Source of the DNA: a virus
Length of the DNA: 30,356 nucleotides
Virus record (IMG/VR): IMGVR_UViG_3300031976_000952
Location: 1 to 30,356 of that record
Reading direction: 5' to 3' (one strand)
Program-made: the position numbers and the translations under genes
Shown: positions 1 to 27,697 of the stretch, piece after piece
How positions within the stretch are numbered: position 1 is the stretch's first letter
Layout of the letters: each line of letters opens with the position of its first letter
Notes under the pieces: generated by a model
Told to the model about the DNA's origin: nothing
Seen by the model: the letters and a program-made list of their open reading frames with translations, nothing else
Databases searched by the model: none

Positions 1-1778
1 GGCAATACTGGCGCTTCAACTGGTGTTTTAGTTGGCAAGGTAATAGGCTCTTGCAGTGCACTAGGGGGAATCGGTGCTTCTTGAGTGACGGGCGAGACTA
101 CGTCATTAGTAGGTTGTGCGATAACTTGTGCTTTTGGTTCTGATGGCGTAAGGCTATTTTGTTGATTAACAGGGTTACTGATTTGCTCAACGGGTTGATA
201 GTCTGCGTAATCACTGGATATTTCCCTGTTCTCCAGCGGTATTTCGGGTTGTAATGAGTCTCGTAACACGTCACCTTCGTAGATCCCCCCCTCTTCAGTC
301 ATGCCACTAGACTCGAAAAGCTGCTCTGTTTGTGCCTGGCTTTCTACTGGACCAGAAAAGTCCATAGGCTGTTCGCCAGTGATTTCCGCTCGTCTTTGAA
401 GCAGTTCATTTCGCTTTGCTTCAAGCTCGGCAAATTCAGGTGGGGATAGATTGTCGCCATTCTCAATCATCCTATTTTCAAGATCCGTGATTTGATCTTC
501 TATTACCTGATAGTTTTGATCTTTCTCGATAAGGCTAAGAGAATCATCTGTATTTCCTACGAGCCTATCCAGCTCGTTTAACAAATTAGCTCGCGTTTGT
601 GCGGCTTGCTCGTACTCTGCATCGGTCATGGTATCCAAGCCGGATTGCATCTGCGTTTCAATTTGATCAATTTGCGCTTGAATTTGATCAACAGGGGATG
701 CTGTGCTGTTATCTACTGGCTGCGTATCCGTGCTAGTGACATCGTCTTTAGGTTGACTAAATCGATTTCGAACAGACCCAGCGCCACCAAAAGCGCCACC
801 AACTGGGCCACCGACCATGGCACCTGTTAGCGCATCGCCAATTACATTATCCATTGTGTTGGTTGGTACCGCTGGATTAACCGCCATATTAGAAATAGCG
901 GTTTGACCACCGCTTTCAACTAACTCTTGCGAGCCTTCTGTAATAGCACCGGTTGCGGCTGCTTTACCGATACCGCCAGCCTCACCACGGAATAACTTAC
1001 CCATTACTGGGCCAAGTGCACCCTGCGTGATCGCACCCATGATGGCACCATCTTTTGCCGCTTCGGTGGCTAGTTCACGAGCTAAATCTTCACGTGCTTG
1101 GTACACAGCCGATTCATGATCTAATCCTCCCTCCCTTAATGATCGATACTTTTCCCTATAAACTGGAGCATTAGCAAGATCCATTAACGATGCATTGGAA
1201 ACGGTCTCGTAAGCTTGGTTACCTGTAGAACCACCAATGCTTGCAGCGCCAACGCCTGCAAAACCTACAACATCAGCACCTTTATCTAGCGCTGTGGCCG
1301 CTTTAGCACTTTTACCTGCAATCCCTGTTGCCTTACCTGCCGCCGAAATAACCTTGGCAGCACCAAGCCCGGGGGCCATTGTTGGTGCAAAGCTACCAAG
1401 ACCACTAATAAAGTTAAGGCCAAAGCCCTTTGCGTTACTACCTTCTTTAAATCCATAACCAGTGATACTGTCATCGTTGGATTCTATGCCAAAGTTTTGA
1501 AACGCCTCGCGACCACTTGATGACATTTGGTCAATTTGATTACCCGCCTGTTTCCGCAAAAAGTTTGCGCCTTTACCTATGGTTTCTGAGCCTGTCGCGT
1601 AGCGAGCACCATCTGCTAAATCTGCCGCACCACTCAGGATGCCGTGTTGAAAAGCATCGACTGAGTCAAGAATGATGCCTTGCTCGCTTTTCGGCTCGTT
1701 TTCGGCTTCTGCTTTTAATCTAAGTTCCTGTCTAATGAGTGCGAGACGATTAATTTCATCAAGTGTAATGTCTTTCAA
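1..1778 (-). CDS. Large ejection/internal virion protein, 3' end beyond window
   Basis: An uninterrupted minus-strand frame runs from a TTG codon at 1778 to the left edge, at least 592 codons with no stop. The TTG start is supported by a GGAG Shine-Dalgarno 8 nt upstream and no good ATG. Residues about 1-35 are charged and helical, 120-335 are rich in Gly/Ala with several hydrophobic stretches, and about 340-590 are Gln/Glu-rich and coiled-coil or disordered. This composition and its place as the last and largest gene of a block after the nozzle and fibre genes fit a DNA-ejection protein of short-tailed phages, which enters the cell envelope. No catalytic motif is visible in the part present; a lytic transglycosylase or other domain could lie beyond the edge. 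The function is inferred from context and composition. Confidence 0.8.
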   Translation of the reverse strand, partial: MKDITLDEINRLALIRQELRLKAEAENEPKSEQGIILDSVDAFQHGILSGAADLADGARYATGSETIGKGANFLRKQAGNQIDQMSSSGREAFQNFGIESNDDSITGYGFKEGSNAKGFGLNFISGLGSFAPTMAPGLGAAKVISAAGKATGIAGKSAKAATALDKGADVVGFAGVGAASIGGSTGNQAYETVSNASLMDLANAPVYREKYRSLREGGLDHESAVYQAREDLARELATEAAKDGAIMGAITQGALGPVMGKLFRGEAGGIGKAAATGAITEGSQELVESGGQTAISNMAVNPAVPTNTMDNVIGDALTGAMVGGPVGGAFGGAGSVRNRFSQPKDDVTSTDTQPVDNSTASPVDQIQAQIDQIETQMQSGLDTMTDAEYEQAAQTRANLLNELDRLVGNTDDSLSLIEKDQNYQVIEDQITDLENRMIENGDNLSPPEFAELEAKRNELLQRRAEITGEQPMDFSGPVESQAQTEQLFESSGMTEEGGIYEGDVLRDSLQPEIPLENREISSDYADYQPVEQISNPVNQQNSLTPSEPKAQVIAQPTNDVVSPVTQEAPIPPSALQEPITLPTKTPVEAPVL

Positions 1779-1794
1779 GGTGTTTTCTCCGAGC

Positions 1795-1817
1795 AAAAAA
1801 AACCCGCGCATGGCGGG
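1795..1817 (-). terminator. Rho-independent terminator
   Basis: On the minus strand a 5-bp GC stem (CCCGC/GCGGG, 5-nt loop) at 1803-1817 is followed by eight T. It lies between the 364-residue protein gene and the TTG-started gene. The same stem occurs at 17648-17662. Confidence 0.75.
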
Positions 1818-1847: not shown

Positions 1848-2942
1848 CTATCGGTATAAAAAGTCTTCTGATGGATACTGTTCACCCTGCGGTTGGGCTG
1901 CGTTGGTCTGCTTTAAATCGCTCATAAACTTATCGTATTGCTCTTTCGAGATTTGATTGCGGCTATACATGAACTCGACTGTCTCAATACGGTCTTGAAT
2001 GTCCGCCACTGGAGCCACGTCTGATGCTGTACCTTTACGCTCTTTAGGATACTCAATGTATGATTCACCCGTTTGTGGGTCTGTTTTGGTAATGTAAGGT
2101 CTTTCGCCAATCTGATTGCCTTGCTCATCAAAAAGTTTTTCGACATTAACTTTTGGTGTTCCTGCTTTTGCTTCTCTTGCCTTGGCGGCTCTATTTTTTA
2201 CTCGGTAGTTTAAGCCATCAATCTTTTCTTTATCGTAAGCTTTAACTATTCCGCTGTCGTTAAAAATGGCAATCTCACCATTTCTCATTTCTATTCTAGT
2301 AAAATTTTGCCCTTTATTTTCCAAGAGAGAATTAAGATAGGTTAGCGCGGATTTTTCATCCCCTGATTTGATCAATCCTAAAATCTCGATGTCTCTATTA
2401 TCTAAAGCCTCTTGAGCTTTCATTTTAATTTCTGCTTCATTCCCCGTTCTAAATATTTCCTGCATATGTTGATCGTATGCCTGAGCTTGAAGCGCGAATT
2501 CTTGCTGCTTTTTTCTAAATTCAATTGCTTTGGTCGTGAATTGCTCTTCACCTGATCTTATTTGTTGCCGCTTAATCGTATTACCAAGTCCATAGCCCTC
2601 AGCTAAGCTTTCAGCCCCTAACGCTTTAGCTTCACGCTCTCGGTTGGTTCTTGCTATATTTTGTGCAGAAGCATCATTCCCTTTAATGATTGCATCATAG
2701 CCAGAAATCGTGGCGTTGTTATTTGAGATAACTCCGTCATTTGTTTGTTTATTTGCCCTTGCTAATTTCGATTCATCAGACATGAACTCCTCGGCTTTCA
2801 CCTTTTCAGCCTCAAGAACAGGCACTTGAAGCCCGAACTTTGTCTCCTCACGCCTTTCTTGATTTCGACGCAGCCCAAAGTTTGTGTTGCGTTCCTGACC
2901 TTTTAAAAAACCATCTGCTATATAACCTAGACCAAAACTCAT
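1848..2942 (-). CDS. Candidate ejection/virion core protein, 364 aa
   Basis: The ATG at 2942 is preceded by AGGAG about 9 nt upstream, and the gene begins one base after the stop of the 243-residue protein gene. The protein is highly charged and predicted mostly helical, with long Glu/Lys/Gln/Ala stretches (about residues 35-210) that look like coiled coil. It has no signal peptide and no recognisable enzyme motif. The N terminus (SFGLGYIADGF) is slightly hydrophobic. Position between a T7-gp14-like protein and the very large Gly/Ala-rich protein suggests it is one of the set of internal virion proteins released with the DNA. I do not recognise the family from sequence alone; the role is inferred from gene order. 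Confidence 0.8.
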   Translation of the reverse strand: MSFGLGYIADGFLKGQERNTNFGLRRNQERREETKFGLQVPVLEAEKVKAEEFMSDESKLARANKQTNDGVISNNNATISGYDAIIKGNDASAQNIARTNREREAKALGAESLAEGYGLGNTIKRQQIRSGEEQFTTKAIEFRKKQQEFALQAQAYDQHMQEIFRTGNEAEIKMKAQEALDNRDIEILGLIKSGDEKSALTYLNSLLENKGQNFTRIEMRNGEIAIFNDSGIVKAYDKEKIDGLNYRVKNRAAKAREAKAGTPKVNVEKLFDEQGNQIGERPYITKTDPQTGESYIEYPKERKGTASDVAPVADIQDRIETVEFMYSRNQISKEQYDKFMSDLKQTNAAQPQGEQYPSEDFLYR

Positions 2943-2943
2943 A

Positions 2944-3675
2944 TTAAAATACTCCTAATACACCTTTACCAAATTGAGTAAGCTGAAAGTCTCCACTATC
3001 AGAAGGCTCAAACTTACCTTTATCGTTGTATGAGCCATATGAGCCCATTGCTGCGCCAGCTATCCCCAGACCTAACTGCATGCTGTTAGATGCTTGCTGT
3101 CCATACATGCTGGCACGAAGTCCATAAGAACTTGCTTGGTTAGCGTAGTTGCTTGATGCGCTACTCATTAATCCTGCCGCTGCCGTTGGAAGCCCTTTAC
3201 CAAGACCGACCGCTGCAACCTTTTGGTTGTAGTCCATTTCTTCCGCCTGTGCTCTTGTTGTGTTCTGAGAGTTGGCTTTGGCCACCGCTTTTGAAATGGC
3301 GCTCTTACGCGTGTTTTCAGCGTAGGCGCCTGAATTCGGATTAATGCCCATGCGTTGAAGATTTCGGTTTCGAGAGGCTTCGGCACTATCAAAAGCGGAC
3401 TGAGTAGTCAGCCCAGCTTTTGTGACCATTTCCTGTTGTTCCGCATCAGAAAGCCCTGCATTTGCAACAATCTCTTCCTCAAGAGGACGATATGTTGTTT
3501 TGTAATAGTCGTATTGCTCTTGGGCCATTTCTAGCTGTTGCTGAGCGATAGCGTTTTGAGCTGCAATAGCACTATCTTGCTGATCCATTGCTCTGTTTGC
3601 GTTTTTGCTGGATTTATTAGCCGAGTACAAACCAACTGCACCGCCAACGCCAGCTATTGCTGCACCTACACCCAT
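2944..3675 (-). CDS. Internal virion/ejection protein (T7 gp14-like type), 243 aa
   Basis: The start ATG at 3675 has AGGAG 6 nt upstream and overlaps the end of the upstream gene by 10 nt, suggesting coupled translation. The protein opens with a glycine-rich hydrophobic helix (residues 2-18, GVGAAIAGVGGAVGLYSA). A Gln/Ala-rich helical region follows, with the pattern of small virion core proteins that form or line the ejection channel in podoviruses (NAIAQQQLEMAQEQYDYY near 41-58), and then a Gly/Ser/Ala-rich C-terminal half. Length and layout match the 'internal virion protein' commonly annotated at this place. It probably inserts into the outer membrane or periplasm during DNA entry; this is inferred from the family type, not shown here. 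Confidence 0.85.
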   Translation of the reverse strand: MGVGAAIAGVGGAVGLYSANKSSKNANRAMDQQDSAIAAQNAIAQQQLEMAQEQYDYYKTTYRPLEEEIVANAGLSDAEQQEMVTKAGLTTQSAFDSAEASRNRNLQRMGINPNSGAYAENTRKSAISKAVAKANSQNTTRAQAEEMDYNQKVAAVGLGKGLPTAAAGLMSSASSNYANQASSYGLRASMYGQQASNSMQLGLGIAGAAMGSYGSYNDKGKFEPSDSGDFQLTQFGKGVLGVF

Positions 3676-4376
3676 ATGTTTCTCCTAAAAATGTCTTTGA
3701 CATGGAAGCTTGTCGCTTCAATTTTGATAATTGGATAATCTTTAATACAAATTCGCTTTGCATAAGATTGATGTGATAACTCAGAAAGTAAGAATGCCGC
3801 TTTTTTGTCGTTGCCAGATTCAACAAGGGTCTTAGCAAAAAGAAGGTTTTGAAGATGCCAAGTATCAAGTTCTATGTTTTCACTTTCACAAACAGGTTGA
3901 GTTGAAAGCCACTTATAAAGCGTCAATTCTGACTGGACGGCACTCTGTTTAATTCCTGATATTGTTACTGCGTTTTCTCTAACTCTAAGCGGTTGGTAAC
4001 CAGCAAGGCGCGTGATGAATAAAGCGGGTTTGTTCGATTCTGGCGTAATGCCAATGATTCGGAATGCATCGGTATTTGTGAAAAGCCAGCCAGCCCCTAA
4101 CTCAAGCGCCTCTAAAGCCGTTCTGCCACGACAAAGCGCGGTTAAATTTATATGACCTTCGTATGTTGATGGTGAGCATTGAATACAAATAAAACACCCA
4201 ATATTCGCCCCGTCTTCCGTAACCATGAGTACGATGTTTCTGGCATCTTTCATTATGTTGACTGCTGAAAACTCAGATTTTGCAGGTGAGCTATCATCAA
4301 TGATGCCGCCAAATACAGACGGATCTCTCAATATGGCGTCAATCGCCTCTATGTCATAGGTTCGGCTAACGTTCAT
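3666..4376 (-). CDS. GNAT-like/Gp13-type virion-associated protein, 236 aa
   Basis: The ATG at 4376 follows AGGTG by 5 nt. It is the first gene of the ejection block, just after a terminator and a candidate late promoter. The first 140 residues resemble the acetyltransferase-like fold of T7 gp13-type or DUF2824-type phage proteins: a strand with IGCFICIQ (about 59-66), then a helix ending in GAGWLFTN, then FRIIGITPESNKPALFITRLAGYQPL, which is like the GNAT end motif (N, A and a following aromatic). The canonical acetyl-CoA loop (Q/RxxGxG/A) is not clear, so enzyme activity is doubtful. The C-terminal third is unassigned. In podoviruses such proteins help load ejection proteins into the head; this is a family-based inference. 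Confidence 0.75.
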   Translation of the reverse strand: MNVSRTYDIEAIDAILRDPSVFGGIIDDSSPAKSEFSAVNIMKDARNIVLMVTEDGANIGCFICIQCSPSTYEGHINLTALCRGRTALEALELGAGWLFTNTDAFRIIGITPESNKPALFITRLAGYQPLRVRENAVTISGIKQSAVQSELTLYKWLSTQPVCESENIELDTWHLQNLLFAKTLVESGNDKKAAFLLSELSHQSYAKRICIKDYPIIKIEATSFHVKDIFRRNIWV

Positions 4377-4396
4377 GGTTCACCTTTTTTAGGCAC

Positions 4397-4419
4397 AAAA
4401 AAACCGCCACTTGGACGGT
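4397..4419 (-). terminator. Rho-independent terminator upstream of ejection genes
   Basis: On the minus strand, 4419-4403 forms a 6-bp stem (ACCGTC pairing with GGCGGT, one G-U pair, 5-nt loop) followed by seven T. It lies only about 40 nt downstream of the start predicted from the promoter at 4468-4496, so that promoter would give an RNA of roughly 65 nt unless the terminator is read through. Confidence 0.75.
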
Positions 4420-4467
4420 TTAATTTAAAAAGAATGGGGCTGCACACACTTATGGCAGCATGGGAAA

Positions 4468-4496
4468 ACTATAGCTTATTCGTTATCAATTGTCAG
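4468..4496 (-). promoter_or_regulatory. Candidate late promoter before ejection genes
   Basis: Minus strand: -35 CTGACA (4496-4491), 17-nt spacer, -10 TATAGT (4473-4468), each 5 of 6 to the sigma-70 consensus. The spacer has TGATAA and the start region has TTTTCCCAT, both shared, at the same 18-nt spacing, with the promoter at 23722-23750. An intrinsic terminator follows within about 65 nt. Predicted start near 4461. Confidence 0.6.
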
Positions 4497-4511: not shown

Positions 4512-5459
4512 TTAAACAATCGCTTTGCATGTTATCGTTCGCGAGCTGAACGCCAATTTATCAGATGGTGGATTAACTACAAAGTTAGCCGGCAAAGAGA
4601 AAGACAGCCCATTGTAATGATTGTAGCTACCTCGATCATGAACGCCATACACATATTGATCATTATTTAATGTGACCGTCACTTTTTTTAAATTACCGTC
4701 TACGCTTTGTTGAATCATGCCGATTGTTTTTGTGCAATTAACCCAGCTGTTTGACTCGGTTCTATATCCTATGACTTCGGTTCTATAAAATGTATTGCAA
4801 ACTCGATAGGGTTCTAGCCTTGATGTGCATACTTGGCCTCCTCCCTGATAGCTGCAAGAATATCTGCCATTTACAACGCCACAAACCATTTTAGGTGGTA
4901 CATAAGAGCAACTTGTGACGTATCGATAGGTTGTATAACATGACTGATACGGCACCTGGCCATAGACGGGTAATTGATACTCTTCGTAATGAGGGTAATA
5001 TTTTAACGATGGACTTTCAGGATTGCTTAAAACATACATATCCTTGTTTGTGTTTATCCCTGATACCGATAGATCACCCGTATTCTTTACATCAAAGTAA
5101 ACATGATCTGAATGAAACTTCTGCTCTCCACTTTCACTATATAGAATAACTCCATACCCTTGTTCTGGAAGCGGAAAAAATGGGACTAAAAAAGCTAACT
5201 CGGCTTTGCCTGCTGAGCTTGCGTAAAGCCTCAATCCAGCCCGTTTGCCATTGCTATAAATATACCCTAAGAACGACACGCCAATGCCAAGATGGCGAAT
5301 GCAGGTTGTTAGGTTTTCATGCTCAAACTCAGTCAACGATACCACTTGATAGCCTGCTGAGAGCTGGACAGTTTTCTTGCCTAGCAACACTATATTTTGG
5401 TATTCGTCATCAAGCTTAACTTGGGTACCATTAATTGTTACTTCAAAACCATACGTCAT
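4512..5459 (-). CDS. Cys/Tyr-rich tail-tip protein, 315 aa
   Basis: The ATG at 5459 has AGGGTG about 5 nt upstream and the gene follows the 115-residue protein gene by 3 nt. The N terminus (MTYGFEV) resembles that of its neighbour (MADYGFV), suggesting a related beta-rich N-terminal module of small tail proteins. From about residue 165 the protein changes character: seven Cys at 174, 184, 193, 202, 211, 221 and 242, spaced mostly 9-10 residues apart and mixed with many Tyr. A beta-rich C-terminal part follows, ending with another Cys. There is no signal peptide. It is the last gene of the tail/fibre run before a terminator. A receptor-binding or fibre-cap role is an inference; I do not know a named family for the Cys-rich part. 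Confidence 0.85.
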   Translation of the reverse strand: MTYGFEVTINGTQVKLDDEYQNIVLLGKKTVQLSAGYQVVSLTEFEHENLTTCIRHLGIGVSFLGYIYSNGKRAGLRLYASSAGKAELAFLVPFFPLPEQGYGVILYSESGEQKFHSDHVYFDVKNTGDLSVSGINTNKDMYVLSNPESPSLKYYPHYEEYQLPVYGQVPYQSCYTTYRYVTSCSYVPPKMVCGVVNGRYSCSYQGGGQVCTSRLEPYRVCNTFYRTEVIGYRTESNSWVNCTKTIGMIQQSVDGNLKKVTVTLNNDQYVYGVHDRGSYNHYNGLSFSLPANFVVNPPSDKLAFSSRTITCKAIV

Positions 5460-6147: not shown

Positions 6148-8612
6148 TACAATTTCCCCATTTTTACACGCAGTACGCCATTTCTGTCATACACTTTAAT
6201 GCCATTACCGTCTTGCTGGATTCGGCCATCATCGGTGCTTGAATTGATTTCAAAGAATCCGTCTTTTGTTAATCGCCATCCTGACGTTTGATAAAGATAG
6301 TTCGATGATTTGGCGTCTTTTACTGTTAGGTTTTCTGTATCTACAAACTGAGCACCAAGTAATCCCGCTGTGATTTTGTCAGCTGAAATGCTTTCAATCA
6401 TTGCATTTTTAACTACCAAATTAACGATGCTAGCCGCATCCATAACAACCATGCGCTTAGTGGTGCCATCTGGTTGCAATACATCAGCAACGGCAAAATC
6501 CAACGCTTCGGCACCGGGCTTTGAAATGCTAAATTGATCAACATCGAAATGTGCGGCTGTATTTTGTCCGTCTGCGCTAAGTACGAAACCTGAAATTCGT
6601 TTTACACCAAGCGTATCGGTTTGAAATTTCACAGCCCAATTCGCTCGTAAACCATCAATGCTTTCAGCTTGAGTTTGTATGGTGGCAGACTGCTCGTTTA
6701 GGGTGGTTGTGAGTTGATTGATGTTGAGAGCGCGAGCCGATTTCTCGTCCGAAATCGCTTGGCTTAATTCTGTTTTAGTGGCAATAGAGGTACTTTTTTC
6801 TGTTTCGTATTCTGCTTTATGCACCTCAACGGTTTCTGCCAAAGACAATATGCTGTCAGAGAGCGTCCTTTGTGCCTGGGCTATCGATGCACTCGCAGCG
6901 CTTAACCCTGTTTTGTACTCTGATTCGATACGATCAAGGCGGCTAATTTGCACCCTGTCTGCGCTGGCCGATTGGTCAATATTTTTGAGCTGTTGAGCTT
7001 GAGCGTCAAAGCCTGCTTGTTTAAGGGCTGTTATCGCTTGAGATAGGCGCTTAATGCTAGTGCCATCTAATCCAGCCGCTATATCGCTCACTTCCGTTTG
7101 AGTCGCACGCGCATTAATGTCACTTTGCTGGCTCCGAAACTTAGCGTCAATGCTCCCAAATTGCGAAACAGAGCTGTTATAAATATCGTTTTTAGCTTGT
7201 GTAAGCTGGCTCACACTGGCTTTACTTGATAAGCCAGTGCTAGGGTTAGTTAATGACGTTGCGAGAGAATTTAGGCGCTCAGCCGTTGCAGTTTTGTCTG
7301 TAGAATATGATTGCTGCCAATCCGTAAAACTGGATTGAGATAAGTATGTGCTGCCTAACGATTGATATTGGCTTTCTAGCGTGTCTGTTCGAGTAGCTAG
7401 GGCATTAAGTGGTGTGACAACATTATCTGTCACATAAGTTGTTGTCGCCCAATTTGCTGTGTCTGACGCGCTTATCTTAGTGATTACTTGAGCTATAACA
7501 TCGTCATTTGTTGTAATGATGTTAATCGCTTCTTCTACAGCTGCATCCCTAGCAATGCCTAGATCATTTTCAAACTTCGCAGTTAGCGAAACAATAGACG
7601 ATGCTCGCGCCTCGCTTTCACTTGCTATCGCTTCATCAAGTCGAATTATTTGAGCATTAGAAGTGCTTTTTAACGTTTGATACGATGCCGACAGTTCTTG
7701 GTATTGCTGAATGCGTGATACTTCCTCGTTCGAAATACGAGCGAGTGCCTTTAGCTCTCTTGCATCATTACCTACGAGACTTTCAATAGATTGGAGCGCT
7801 TGGAATGATTTAATTCGCTCCTGTGATTCAAGAAGAATGCTGTTAGCTGTCTGTTCGGCTTCTTGCTGTATGTTTTCTATCCGCTCTTGTTTTTCTTGCG
7901 CAATGGCTTCTGAGCGATTCTGAACTTCATTTGAAACCGCAAGCACTCTGTCTGCAATTTCAGACTGAATTACGCCATCGATGGTGGGTATCTTTGCTAT
8001 TTCATCACGAAGGCCTTTTACCAGCTGGCTCGATGTAATTTTGTCATTCAGCGTTTCAAGAACTACTGATGGATCAAGATTGGTTGTCGCGCTAACGCCA
8101 TCCACAGCGTTGTAGTCAGACTTTTTACCAGCATGAGTAACAAAGCGAATCCAGTAGTAAAACGTCCTGCCTGGGTCAACAGCATCCACATAGTATCGAT
8201 AAGCGGGTCTGGCCCCTAAGTCTACAGCGGTAGAAAGGTTGTTTTCTGTGCTGCGCCATATTTCTGTATAGGCGTGATACGGATAGTTTGGCGCGTTCCA
8301 CGTCAAATAGACATTGGCCGTTGTTGGGTTAGCTTGCAGGTTTTCAGGATTTGGCGGGGCCGCAGTAACCAATTGATTGCCAGCCGGTGCGACAATACTC
8401 GCGTACTGCCCTTTACCTCGTTTTGACAAAAGAAACTCGGCCACGCCAGCATCGGTTAAGTCGCGGATCTTTACCGCTCTGTCTAATGGGTCGCCACGGT
8501 CGCCCTGATCAATTTGCATTTGCTCGCGAATGGCATTAAGTATTGTGTTGATGCCTGCAAGCTGGCCAGTAAAGCGAGCTGGCTCAATCTGTGGCCGATT
8601 TGGTTTAACCAT
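6147..8612 (-). CDS. Host-specificity J-like tail fibre (Fn3, coiled coil, DUF1983), 821 aa
   Basis: I choose the ATG at 8612 (MVKPNRPQ) because GGAG lies 7 nt upstream and the gene then overlaps the nozzle gene by 8 nt; an in-frame ATG at 8636 would add 8 residues without a clear ribosome site. After about 85 N-terminal residues comes a fibronectin type III-like domain (about 85-175: NVYLTWNAP, YTEIWRS, YYWIRFVT). A very long Ser/Gln/Ala/Glu-rich coiled coil follows (about 190-640). The C-terminal region (about 650-821: WAVKFQTD, ISGFVL, DKITAGLL, VKDAKSSNYLYQTSGW) matches the DUF1983 tail of lambda protein J-type host-specificity proteins. It should form a trimeric fibre with the binding tip at the C terminus. 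Such fibres are best known from siphoviruses, so its presence here suggests module exchange. Confidence 0.9.
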   Translation of the reverse strand: MVKPNRPQIEPARFTGQLAGINTILNAIREQMQIDQGDRGDPLDRAVKIRDLTDAGVAEFLLSKRGKGQYASIVAPAGNQLVTAAPPNPENLQANPTTANVYLTWNAPNYPYHAYTEIWRSTENNLSTAVDLGARPAYRYYVDAVDPGRTFYYWIRFVTHAGKKSDYNAVDGVSATTNLDPSVVLETLNDKITSSQLVKGLRDEIAKIPTIDGVIQSEIADRVLAVSNEVQNRSEAIAQEKQERIENIQQEAEQTANSILLESQERIKSFQALQSIESLVGNDARELKALARISNEEVSRIQQYQELSASYQTLKSTSNAQIIRLDEAIASESEARASSIVSLTAKFENDLGIARDAAVEEAINIITTNDDVIAQVITKISASDTANWATTTYVTDNVVTPLNALATRTDTLESQYQSLGSTYLSQSSFTDWQQSYSTDKTATAERLNSLATSLTNPSTGLSSKASVSQLTQAKNDIYNSSVSQFGSIDAKFRSQQSDINARATQTEVSDIAAGLDGTSIKRLSQAITALKQAGFDAQAQQLKNIDQSASADRVQISRLDRIESEYKTGLSAASASIAQAQRTLSDSILSLAETVEVHKAEYETEKSTSIATKTELSQAISDEKSARALNINQLTTTLNEQSATIQTQAESIDGLRANWAVKFQTDTLGVKRISGFVLSADGQNTAAHFDVDQFSISKPGAEALDFAVADVLQPDGTTKRMVVMDAASIVNLVVKNAMIESISADKITAGLLGAQFVDTENLTVKDAKSSNYLYQTSGWRLTKDGFFEINSSTDDGRIQQDGNGIKVYDRNGVLRVKMGKL

Positions 8613-10375: not shown

Positions 10376-10398
10376 GTAGCCTCCTGTTTTTTTGGCAC

Positions 10399-10417
10399 AA
10401 AAAAACCGCTTTCGCGG
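10399..10417 (-). terminator. Rho-independent terminator
   Basis: On the minus strand, CCGC/GCGG closes a GAAA tetraloop (10417-10406), then seven T. It lies between the 177-residue gene and the small 52-residue gene. The flank after the T-run (GTGCC, then A-rich in the minus sense) resembles the flank of the terminator at 4397-4419. Confidence 0.7.
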
Positions 10418-23789: not shown

Positions 23790-24218
23790 TCAACATTCAC
23801 GAACCAATCCATAGGTCTTAACCATTTTTACCCATTCATTTGGTGACAGAGAATCGCCAGCGGCATCGAAATTTTCTTTATTCGCATAATCAATTAACTC
23901 AACATTATAATATTCACCTTCTTCATCCTCAAAGCCGCCTGAGCTTTCTATGAAGAATTTCATACCCACAGGTTTGCTAGAAATATAGGTATCACCAGTT
24001 TTTGGCTTTAGCTCTCGCTCTTCATTTGTTAATGCTGAGGGATCAAAAATATCCGGCTGCTCACTTTCATCATGCGAATCGAAGAAATCGACCAATGGCT
24101 TTCCTGTTGTTAAAAGCTCATTACGAACTCTATTGACAGTTTGAGCCTTAGTGATACTTTGCTTTCTCTTCAATTCTTGCTGCTTTTTTCGCTTTTGATC
24201 TTTTGTTAACTTAGCCAT
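23790..24218 (-). CDS. Hypothetical protein, 142 aa, candidate moron product
   Basis: The ATG at 24218 overlaps the upstream gene by 8 nt, with AAGGAG 6 nt upstream. The N terminus is very basic (KDQKRKKQQELKRKQ, about 6-20) and the rest is acidic (DSHDESEQPDIFD and FEDEEGEYYNVELIDY). There is no signal peptide or membrane segment. With its partner it forms a short A/T-rich unit with its own promoter and terminators, between the candidate late regulator and the late promoter. Genes in such a place are often accessory (morons). I do not recognise the family, and no function is claimed. Confidence 0.8.
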   Translation of the reverse strand: MAKLTKDQKRKKQQELKRKQSITKAQTVNRVRNELLTTGKPLVDFFDSHDESEQPDIFDPSALTNEERELKPKTGDTYISSKPVGMKFFIESSGGFEDEEGEYYNVELIDYANKENFDAAGDSLSPNEWVKMVKTYGLVREC

Positions 24219-24369
24219 GATGCTCCTTATTGTTACTCAATAGCTTGAGATTATCCTGCAGCCGCTCGATCTGATCGGCCACTTCATGCTGCTTGTCTTC
24301 GGGGATCTGTGAAATGTCTTGAAATGAAATGCGCTCTAAGCTGTCGAGCAATTGCTTTAGTTGTTCCAT
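24211..24369 (-). CDS. Small helical protein of the accessory cassette, 52 aa
   Basis: I start at the ATG at 24369 (MEQLKQLLDSLERISFQDIS) because AAGGAGGA lies 6-7 nt upstream; in-frame upstream codons lack a ribosome site. The protein is predicted to be two amphipathic helices (EQLKQLLDSLERISFQDI and QHEVADQIERLQDNLKLL), suitable for dimerisation. It is overlapped by and probably co-translated with the 142-residue gene. Function unknown. Confidence 0.8.
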   Translation of the reverse strand: MEQLKQLLDSLERISFQDISQIPEDKQHEVADQIERLQDNLKLLSNNKEHHG

Positions 24370-24398
24370 GTGTTCCTCCTTGAACATTACCAATAATT

Positions 24399-24428
24399 AT
24401 TATGTAACTTAAAAATACCATATAACAA
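24399..24428 (-). promoter_or_regulatory. Candidate promoter of the accessory cassette
   Basis: Minus strand: -35 TTGTTA (24428-24423, 4 of 6), 18-nt spacer, -10 CATAAT (24404-24399, 5 of 6). It lies between the terminator at 24432-24467 and the gene starting at 24369, in an A/T-rich tract. It could allow expression independent of the early operon. Confidence 0.5.
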
Positions 24429-24431
24429 TTT

Positions 24432-24467
24432 AAAAAAATACGCAGTGCGCACGGTGCGTACTGCGTA
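24432..24467 (-). terminator. Strong terminator hairpin after the candidate late-regulator gene
   Basis: A near-perfect 14-bp inverted repeat (TACGCAGTGCGCAC against GTGCGTACTGCGTA, one wobble, 1-nt centre) at 24439-24467 is followed by seven T on the minus strand. GTGCGCAC recurs at 24474-24481. It separates the early operon from the accessory cassette. Binding of a dimeric protein to the palindrome is an alternative use. Confidence 0.8.
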
Positions 24468-24484
24468 CAGAAAGTGCGCACTAC

Positions 24485-25384
24485 TCACCTCCATTGATTC
24501 TTAATCAAGGCAAGCTTTTCTAGCGACTCTCTCGCCCACTCATTCAATACACCTGTCATTTGTTCAAACGCATCTTGCCAGCCGTCACGCTTCCAGTTCG
24601 ATTGCGCTACACCTATGCGCCAGCTTAGGTATTCTTGCGTATAAAGCGGTTTGATATGTGTTATGGGCTCTTTATCTTCGCTTGCTGAGAACATGTAAGC
24701 CTGATCCTGATGAGCAAATGATTTCAAAGCAAGGCTTGCAATAACTGAGTGTTTTTCTATTGCTTCAGCACCTGTCTTTGTTTGCCACTCTTTTACTAAA
24801 TGCAGAATAGCAATTGATAGGTTTTTATCTGAATCGGTCGCTAATTGCATATCCCGAATACAGCCGCGAATGTGTTTAACGATGTGGCCCCATTGCGCTC
24901 TTACCTTATCTTTGGGTATCGCCATTGCACCGGCTAACGTAATATCTATGTTTTGCGGCTTACGCCCTTTGTCGCGTTCGAACTCGTATTTGAGTACTTT
25001 CAAGACAACGATGCTCACGCGACTTGTGTAATAGCTGTATTCCTTTGGAAACTTCTCTTTTACTTCTTGAGCTAGCGCGTTGGCGATCTCGTTATGGTGT
25101 TTGTATGTCGGTAGGGAATCTTCGACTTTAGGTGCCCAACAATACATGCCGAATGCTTGAAGGTGTGCGGGTAACTTCGCAATCTCTGATTGTACGCGCC
25201 CTGCTTTTGCCATGTGCATGACTCTCGACGAATTATCAGCGGGGCCGCGAGTTTGTGTTTCGTTCATAACTGGTTTCTGTCTTAGTAAATTGGCATTAGA
25301 TCGATTGATCTCTAGTAGCTGGTCATTTGCACTGCGAGAATAAAACGCATCGTGCCACATTTGTCGAGCTGATAAATACTGCAT
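24485..25384 (-). CDS. Candidate late-gene regulator (Q position), 299 aa
   Basis: The ATG at 25384 overlaps the RusA gene stop by one base (TAATG). The protein is helical and basic, with WHDAFYSRSAND near the start, then HLQAFGMYCWAPKVEDSL (about 74-91), DKGRKPQNIDITLAGAMAIPKDKVRAQWGHIVKHIRGCIRDM (about 138-179) and a C-terminal helical part. There is no obvious zinc finger. Its position as the last gene of the nin-type operon, upstream of the late promoter and its tandem terminators, is that of antiterminator Q in lambdoid phages. I do not recognise the sequence as a known Q family, so the role is an inference from gene order only. Confidence 0.8.
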   Translation of the reverse strand: MQYLSARQMWHDAFYSRSANDQLLEINRSNANLLRQKPVMNETQTRGPADNSSRVMHMAKAGRVQSEIAKLPAHLQAFGMYCWAPKVEDSLPTYKHHNEIANALAQEVKEKFPKEYSYYTSRVSIVVLKVLKYEFERDKGRKPQNIDITLAGAMAIPKDKVRAQWGHIVKHIRGCIRDMQLATDSDKNLSIAILHLVKEWQTKTGAEAIEKHSVIASLALKSFAHQDQAYMFSASEDKEPITHIKPLYTQEYLSWRIGVAQSNWKRDGWQDAFEQMTGVLNEWARESLEKLALIKNQWR

Positions 25385-26621: not shown

Positions 26622-27419
26622 TCACCAATCCGTGTCATGAATGTTGCCAAGAGCGTCTTGCACACCCTGTCGTCCAGTTTTGATTGCAGCCTGCTGTTGG
26701 GCTGGAACCTGATATTTAATTGAGTTCAACATCCACGTTCGCCATGCCGCTCGCCAATCCTTGAAAAGTGAACCTTTGGCAATGTGGTGATTAGCAAACT
26801 TTTCCGTTTCGAGTTGCCAAGGTGCGGTAATCCCCTTTTCGTTCAGCCAATTCACCATGGTTTGATCAACCGCAAAGTCTTTTGGAAACACACAAGACTG
26901 TTTGGTTTTTGTTGAGGCGTTTGCCGGAGGCGAACTCAAAGAAGTGTTAGGTTCTTTGTTAGGTTCTAAAGTGATAGGTTCTGACCCCCTATTTTGGGGG
27001 TATTTAGTCCCCCCAATTTCGGGGGTATTAGACGGTAAAATTGGAAATATTCCGTTTTTGGGGGTATTAGATTTAATCCCCCCTATTTCGGTTGTATTCT
27101 TTTTTCCCTTCTTTTTAGGTCTTGCTGTCTTTTCTAACTGCTCGTCACGGCCTAAGACACCAACTAACTGATACACTTTTACACGACCAGTATTTCCAAC
27201 TCTTCGACCGGTATCACAAATCAAACCTTGCTCAACAAGTCCCTTAAGTGCTGTATTGACTGTCTTTTCATTAAGCTTTGTGTCTTTAACCATACGAGCG
27301 ATGGAAGGCCAACAAGTGTGGTCTTCTCCCGCTCTATCTGCCATTGAAAGCAGCACAAGCAATTCGGACGATTTGGTTGGGCTGGCTAACCAAGCCCAAC
27401 GCGTTGCATCTACACTCAT
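26622..27419 (-). CDS. Replication protein O-like winged-helix protein containing origin-like repeats, 265 aa
   Basis: I start at the ATG at 27419 (MSVDATRWAWLA) just after the upstream stop; a TTG-started extension to 27470 lacks a ribosome site and would overlap the upstream gene. Residues 1-100 form a winged helix: LLVLLSMADRAGEDHTCWPSIARM and KTVNTALKGLVEQGLI. A Lys-rich part and a repetitive linker follow (about 115-160, with TPKNG, TPEIGG, YPQNRG). The C terminus (about 195-265: QTMVNWLNEKG, DWRAAWRTWMLN) is like DnaT/O-type C-terminal modules. This layout is that of lambda O, whose gene also holds the origin. The repeats in the linker DNA are described at 26985-27098. Confidence 0.85.
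   Translation of the reverse strand: MSVDATRWAWLASPTKSSELLVLLSMADRAGEDHTCWPSIARMVKDTKLNEKTVNTALKGLVEQGLICDTGRRVGNTGRVKVYQLVGVLGRDEQLEKTARPKKKGKKNTTEIGGIKSNTPKNGIFPILPSNTPEIGGTKYPQNRGSEPITLEPNKEPNTSLSSPPANASTKTKQSCVFPKDFAVDQTMVNWLNEKGITAPWQLETEKFANHHIAKGSLFKDWRAAWRTWMLNSIKYQVPAQQQAAIKTGRQGVQDALGNIHDTDW
26985..27098. repeat. Four palindromic repeats inside the O-like gene, candidate origin of replication
   Basis: Repeat units at 26985-27006, 27009-27030, about 27049-27070 and 27078-27098 share CCCCCYATTTYGGGGG and a following TATT; the last two are degenerate. Each is an inverted repeat of C5 and G5 around an A/T core, at spacings of roughly 24, 40 and 29 bases. They lie within the coding part for the linker and are the right kind of signal for iterons bound by a lambda-O-type initiator. 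An A/T-rich tract (27099-27118) lies beside the last unit. Confidence 0.6.
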
Positions 27420-27421
27420 TA

Positions 27422-27697
27422 CTAATGAGCCCCTTTCTCTGATATACGGGCAGGGTTTAATTTGAAACAAACGTCTCTGATGCTTTTCTCGATCTTGATA
27501 TACCCAGCTTGCTCAAGATCTTGAATACACTGGAAAGTCTTTCCAAGATTTAGGCAGCACCGCTTAGCAATATCACCTATTGCTGTATGACAGGTGTTGT
27601 CTTCATCGGCCTCATGGGCCATTTGGGCAAGCATCAACTTGTATTTAGGGTTATCAAATTGAGTGCTCATAACAGTTTGAAGAAGTTGAACGCTCAT
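27422..27697 (-). CDS. Small winged-helix protein, 91 aa
   Basis: The ATG at 27697 overlaps the upstream stop by 4 nt, with GGTGG 5-6 nt upstream. Residues 15-85 form a winged helix: YKLMLAQMAHEADEDNTCHTAIGDIAKRCCLNLGKTFQCIQDLEQAGYIKIE. It aligns by eye with the N-terminal domain of the next gene (LLVLLSMADRAGEDHTCWPSIARM...KTVNTALKGLVEQGLI), sharing the ED-TC step and the two helices. It therefore may be a paralogue or a split-off copy of the initiator's DNA-binding domain. A regulator or partner for replication is possible. Confidence 0.8.
   Translation of the reverse strand: MSVQLLQTVMSTQFDNPKYKLMLAQMAHEADEDNTCHTAIGDIAKRCCLNLGKTFQCIQDLEQAGYIKIEKSIRDVCFKLNPARISEKGAH

Follow-up and report, generated by a model that had tools for sequence, protein, structure and literature searches.

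A lambdoid phage of the Marinomonas prophage group with two putative Q-dependent late promoter modules

The window analysed here is the whole 30,356-nt stretch of viral DNA, and it appears to come from a temperate lambdoid phage belonging to a prophage group of marine Marinomonas bacteria. Two modules of the P_R'-t_R' type, each consisting of a promoter followed by an intrinsic terminator, are located on its (-) strand (Table 1). The main module lies downstream of a putative Q antiterminator gene that follows NinB, an HNH protein and a gene in the RusA position, and that precedes the late promoter. This gene is conserved in all relatives (48-89% identity), in contrast to the mostly variable genes that separate it from P_R'; the interval 23790-24481 is occupied by largely different genes in relatives, in the manner of a cargo slot. 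The second module is intergenic, with the preceding gene ending at 4512 and the following gene starting at 4376, past the terminator.

Table 1. Coordinates of the two late promoter modules, the putative regulator gene and the ejection cassette
Feature	Position	Strand	Remarks
Putative Q antiterminator, 299 aa, phrog_3373 family	24485-25384	(-)	synteny, co-occurrence with modules, family fold
P_R' -35, TTGACA	23750-23745	(-)	invariant, 9 aligned loci
P_R' TGATAA, putative Q binding element	23741-23736	(-)	identical in 8 of 9 aligned loci
P_R' -10, TAACCT, 3/6 to consensus	23727-23722	(-)	invariant, 9 aligned loci; 17 nt from -35
P_R' CCCAT	23717-23713	(-)	presumed start A23714
P_R' CATAGT, putative -10-like pause hexamer	23715-23710	(-)	-1 to +5
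Intrinsic terminator t_R', AAAACCCGC-TTCTT-GCGGGTTTT + T	23695-23672	(-)	fold z -5.8; stem survives sequence changes in relatives
P_R'2 -35, CTGACA	4496-4491	(-)	CTGAC in 6 of 6 phages
P_R'2 TGATAA, putative Q binding element in spacer	4488-4483	(-)	-27 to -22 from A4461
P_R'2 -10, TATAGT	4473-4468	(-)	17 nt from -35
P_R'2 CCCAT	4464-4460	(-)	presumed start A4461
P_R'2 CATGCT, putative -10-like sigma-dependent pause hexamer	4462-4457	(-)	-1 to +5; invariant, 6 phages
Intrinsic terminator t_R'2, AAACCGTC-loop-GGCGGTTT + T tract	4421-4397	(-)	stem kept, loop variable, 6 phages
First gene past second module, head-morphogenesis-like	3666-4376	(-)	phrog_651; sub-threshold Pfam DUF2824 match
Virion structural / DNA-ejection-like protein	2944-3675	(-)	phrog_8003, phrog_21132; ejection assignment weak
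Cassette protein, 364 aa, no family match	1848-2942	(-)	homologues come after ejection gene in relatives
Large frame open at record end, likely last cassette gene	3-1811	(-)	603 aa seen

On the (-) strand the main site reads TTGACA-ATC-TGATAA-TAAAAAAC-TAACCT-TTTTCCC-A(23714)TAGT, and the second site reads CTGACA-AT-TGATAA-CGAATAAGC-TATAGT-TTTCCC-A(4461)TGCT. The second promoter is of the sigma70 type, matching the consensus at 10 of 12 positions (CTGACA-17-TATAGT). The first-pass annotation had reported a distance of exactly 18 nt from TGATAA to CCCAT at both sites, which can be read directly in the sequence, and a terminator behind each promoter, which is borne out by a hairpin followed by T residues whose stem ends 60 nt past the presumed start at the second site and 41 nt past it at the main site. 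It had also counted TGACAAT among the shared features. This string is indeed present at both sites, but it represents only the -35 and is not part of the fixed element, because the bases past TGACA vary among relatives and the gap to TGATAA differs (1 nt at one site, 0 at the other). The element common to both sites runs on in the other direction, into a -10-like hexamer, CAT(AG/GC)T, that the annotation had not named.

TGATAA occupies -27 to -22 at both sites, a position within the promoter spacer, and is invariant or nearly so in relatives. CATGCT and CATAGT both have A at +1 and T at +5. The -10 hexamer is offset by one base between the two sites, and the distance from TGATAA to CCCAT is nonetheless fixed. 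A constant distance between TGATAA and the putative pause hexamer despite a shifted -10 is as expected for a Q that has to reach RNA polymerase during its pause at CATnnT, and the arrangement of the two elements may reflect the function of Q.

Related phages were located via the neighbouring virion genes, with one more (G045) added from a scan of the genus; they comprise prophages of M. polaris (strain DSM 16579), M. piezotolerans and M. hwangdonensis and a metagenomic contig. The main module occurs in each of the five records of the initial comparison; in one of them CCCAT carries a single change. The second module is identical over 29 nt in four of these five, and in the fifth record, from M. 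piezotolerans, a diverged version, AGATAACAAATAAGCTATGATTTTCTCAT, precedes the ejection genes. This diverged copy carries AGATAA and CTCAT, whereas the main site of the same phage retains TGATAA and CCCAT. When six Marinomonas phages were aligned, the second module was found before the ejection genes in every one, although the six constitute one clade and their conservation does not amount to six independent events. A 34-nt block running from TGATAA to GCTGC is identical in five of the six. The stem of t_R'2 is kept in all six, and the bases upstream and those between the start and the terminator vary. The proposal that the shared element would recur in related phages, always ahead of a terminator, therefore agrees with all six. 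The first gene past the second module is head-morphogenesis-like in the window and in G002 and is a different gene in G001 and G004, which argues that the module is not simply the passenger of one gene. A nucleotide search of the region against the phage collection gave no match.

The two-module arrangement was also recovered by a genome-wide search. The shared-element pattern, allowing up to two mismatches, matched 4 of 49 Marinomonas genomes, and in each it matched exactly twice, on the same strand and 16-19 kb apart, so that the relatives carry two modules per prophage; the reversed pattern, used as a control, matched none of the 49. The same four genomes carry a closely related Q gene. A fifth Marinomonas genome has a more distant full-length Q, and two others have short fragments of the Q gene and no module. 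In the virus record that matches the fifth genome, L070 (G427), Q is 45% identical and a diverged main site is found at about 6618-6700, where TGGTTA replaces TGATAA and CACAT replaces CCCAT; these changes possibly co-vary with its Q. A matrix scan of the late region of this record detected the main site and no second site. The same type of scan revealed no third module in the window, which is a phage fragment. Matches to the strict pattern in viral contigs L008, L009 and L012 were set aside as chance occurrences, with no obvious terminator in the bases inspected.

The resemblance of the two sites had been called unlikely to be chance. From the window alone this statement receives only modest backing, and it is conservation in relatives that secures it. 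Among 400 windows simulated with a first-order Markov model, an identity of 20/29 to the main 29-mer arose in 46, and the score attained with a matrix built from the main site only was reached in 9. Taken by themselves, these frequencies would allow the second module to be an ordinary promoter-like sequence with an accidental likeness to P_R'. However, none of the 400 simulated windows combined the 20/29 identity with a -35 matching at 5/6 and placed at the right distance. All six phages, moreover, have the module in the same place, and no other occurrence was found in the 49 Marinomonas genomes at the stringency of the pattern. The probability of an accidental likeness is accordingly next to negligible.

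No regulator had been named by the first-pass annotation, and the gene at 24485-25384 is proposed here. Its product has no match in Pfam or NCBIfam and belongs to phrog_3373, an unannotated family present in Pseudomonas and marine phages, for which a function can now be proposed. Weak matches to phrog_304, "anti-termination protein Q-like", were obtained for 5 of the 23 family members (best E 1.2e-4). In Pseudomonas phages the homologues are placed likewise, behind NinG or RusA and ahead of holin/terminase genes. An AlphaFold model of the window's own protein, based on five close homologues, was of poor quality (pLDDT 47); from a deeper alignment of the family, a distant member was modelled at pLDDT 82.5. 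The best PDB matches to this model are lambda Q and AlpA, with Z values of 10.4, 10.0, 8.8, 8.8, 7.2 and 7.1 (lambda Q, 10.4 and 10.0; AlpA, 8.8) against 4.5 for the next unrelated fold, where a VIA-align Z near 10 can reflect a common arrangement of helical proteins. The match to 21Q is weak (Z 3.8) and clearly poorer than those to lambda Q and AlpA, and the Foldseek E-values are not significant (0.25 at best). The top match in a viral library is "Antitermination protein Q". Because the fold, the genomic position and the adjacent promoter agree, the gene likely encodes a phage Q antiterminator. The earlier suggestion that one late regulator acts at both sites is supported by several observations: in the Marinomonas genomes paired modules are found only with a closely related Q gene, TGATAA-N18-CCCAT is kept, and the predicted family fold and the gene position are both those of a Q.

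Comparable modules accompany more distant members of the family. Directly after the Q homologue, phiPSA1 has TTGACT-17-CATCAT-TTTGCCATATT and AUS531phi has TTGACG-18-TATCGT-TTTGCCATTGT, each followed by a terminator, and another group of the family has TTGACAATTGATTA...TACCCT-TTnAGG-TAAGCT, again followed by a terminator. These cases indicate that a promoter, a -10-like hexamer 5-6 nt past the -10 and a terminator accompany the putative Q family in these phages. TGAT(A/T)A recurs in the promoter spacer of one distant group. For other family members, no such module was recognised by eye in the sequence that follows the gene. With the pattern TTGAC...CCAT, one module each was found in phiPSA1 and AUS531phi and no second, and in two records that encode a related Q the number of modules equals the number of Q copies.

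The reading that we favor, with a probability of roughly 0.8, is that the window holds a late regulon with two Q-dependent P_R'-t_R' modules, of which the second, 19 kb downstream, feeds the ejection cassette. At each module, sigma70 RNA polymerase would start at the A of CCCAT, which places the predicted start of the second transcript at 4461, and would then pause at the -10-like hexamer CAT(AG/GC)T. In the absence of Q, transcription would end at the intrinsic terminator 41-60 nt further on. Q, once made from the gene at 24485-25384, would bind TGATAA in the promoter spacer and load onto the paused polymerase, rendering it resistant to terminators. P_R' (23750) would start the whole late operon, and P_R'2 (4496), inside that operon, would start additional Q-modified polymerases immediately before the ejection cassette. 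The binding, pausing and read-through are all predicted from sequence, as is the presumed benefit of earlier or more ejection protein. A likely benefit of P_R'2 would be that expression of the distal ejection genes does not have to rely on polymerases that have travelled 19 kb. A more specific version of this reading is also considered probable, if with slightly less assurance: a single Q, from a sequence family not yet recognised as Q, loads at both promoters, with P_R'2 lying 16-19 kb within the operon that P_R' drives, and the ejection cassette is separately boosted.

The shared spacer element could instead serve a regulator of initiation: the two sites would be sigma70 promoters with a common site for an activator or repressor, and the terminators would end the upstream transcription unit. 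This is improbable given that in every phage, and at both sites, the terminator comes after the start point of the promoter, that a -10-like hexamer is found at -1 to +5 at both, and that the regulator belongs to a family with a Q-type predicted fold. A promoter followed 60 nt later by a terminator, with no reading frame between them, is what a small-RNA gene would look like, and the window's RNA folds better than shuffled sequences (z -2.3). The second module might then produce a regulatory RNA of about 60 nt with no read-through into the ejection genes. The sequence from about +12 to the terminator is variable, however, and G001 and G003 lack the 5' hairpin GCTGC...GCAGC; the conserved parts are the promoter, the pause hexamer and the terminator stem, which are those in common with P_R'. 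Moreover, a short RNA made without Q is expected from any P_R'-t_R' module, and a dedicated small-RNA gene is thus quite improbable.

The exchange of the first gene past the module between phages, as often seen with cargo genes, raises another possibility, namely that the promoter is constitutive or active during lysogeny and drives a cargo ("moron") gene without any relation to the late regulator. A terminator between promoter and gene, and virion genes coming next, do not fit this scheme, and neither the element shared with P_R' nor the co-occurrence with Q would be expected from it; we regard it as very unlikely.

The textbook lambdoid late operon, as in lambda, 21 and 82, has a single P_R'-t_R' module. 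The system proposed here shares with these phages the sigma70 promoter, the spacer binding element, the -10-like pause sequence, the intrinsic terminator and a regulator gene that ends the delayed-early operon (PMC6606751), and differs from them in having two modules, the second nested in the late operon, and a Q of a different sequence family. Q proteins and AlpA depend on two DNA elements, one in the spacer to which the protein binds and one resembling a -10 that brings about a sigma-dependent pause (PMC6606751; PMC9371919). For AlpA the pause hexamer, at -1 to +5, is CACGAT, in which A+1 and T+5 are essential (PMC9371919). CATGCT and CATAGT stand in the same register. The position of TGATAA at -27 to -22 overlaps the region used by 21Q and AlpA, although 21Q has two direct-repeat TGAGCA subsites and only one clear copy of TGATAA is seen here.

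The closest precedent that was found is AlpA of Pseudomonas aeruginosa, one Q-like antiterminator with two promoters, each followed by terminators, and with a spacer element, GGGACG (PMC7969949). Unlike the regulator proposed here, AlpA targets an operon for host cell death and one further chromosomal locus rather than one phage late operon; its binding sequence differs from TGATAA, and no sequence similarity was detected between AlpA and the protein of gene 24485-25384. GafZ of the Caulobacter gene transfer agent is similar in that an antiterminator loads between the -35 and the -10 to serve a phage-like structural cluster (PMC11150451), but it acts at only one promoter, together with GafY and IHF. 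Mu C and other regulators of phages also govern several late promoters each (PMC4461284), but by activation at initiation and not by antitermination. In the open literature searched, a phage with two Q-dependent late promoters is nowhere described, and this is weak evidence of novelty.

A conserved second gate within a late operon would offer a way to ask, in a natural setting, whether transcription by Q-loaded polymerase fades over long distances, or whether the timing or dose of ejection proteins has to be set separately. The two promoters also form a matched natural pair with little in common beyond what the regulator should need, leaving TGATAA and CATnnT as the likely binding and pause elements.

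Further strong intrinsic terminators are located inside the late operon on the (-) strand, at 17664-17646 and 15738-15717, and passage of these by unmodified polymerase is not expected. The terminator tails at 4385-4407 and 10387-10409, both intergenic in the late operon, are 96% identical over 23 nt, and only the one at 4385-4407 is associated with a promoter module. Each of the overlapping frames 27422-27697 and 26622-27470 matches replication initiation O-like families in their N-terminal part, and the O-like replication gene 26622-27470 (-) contains three CCCCCnATTTnGGGGGTATT-like repeat copies at 26985-27098 that are possibly origin iterons.
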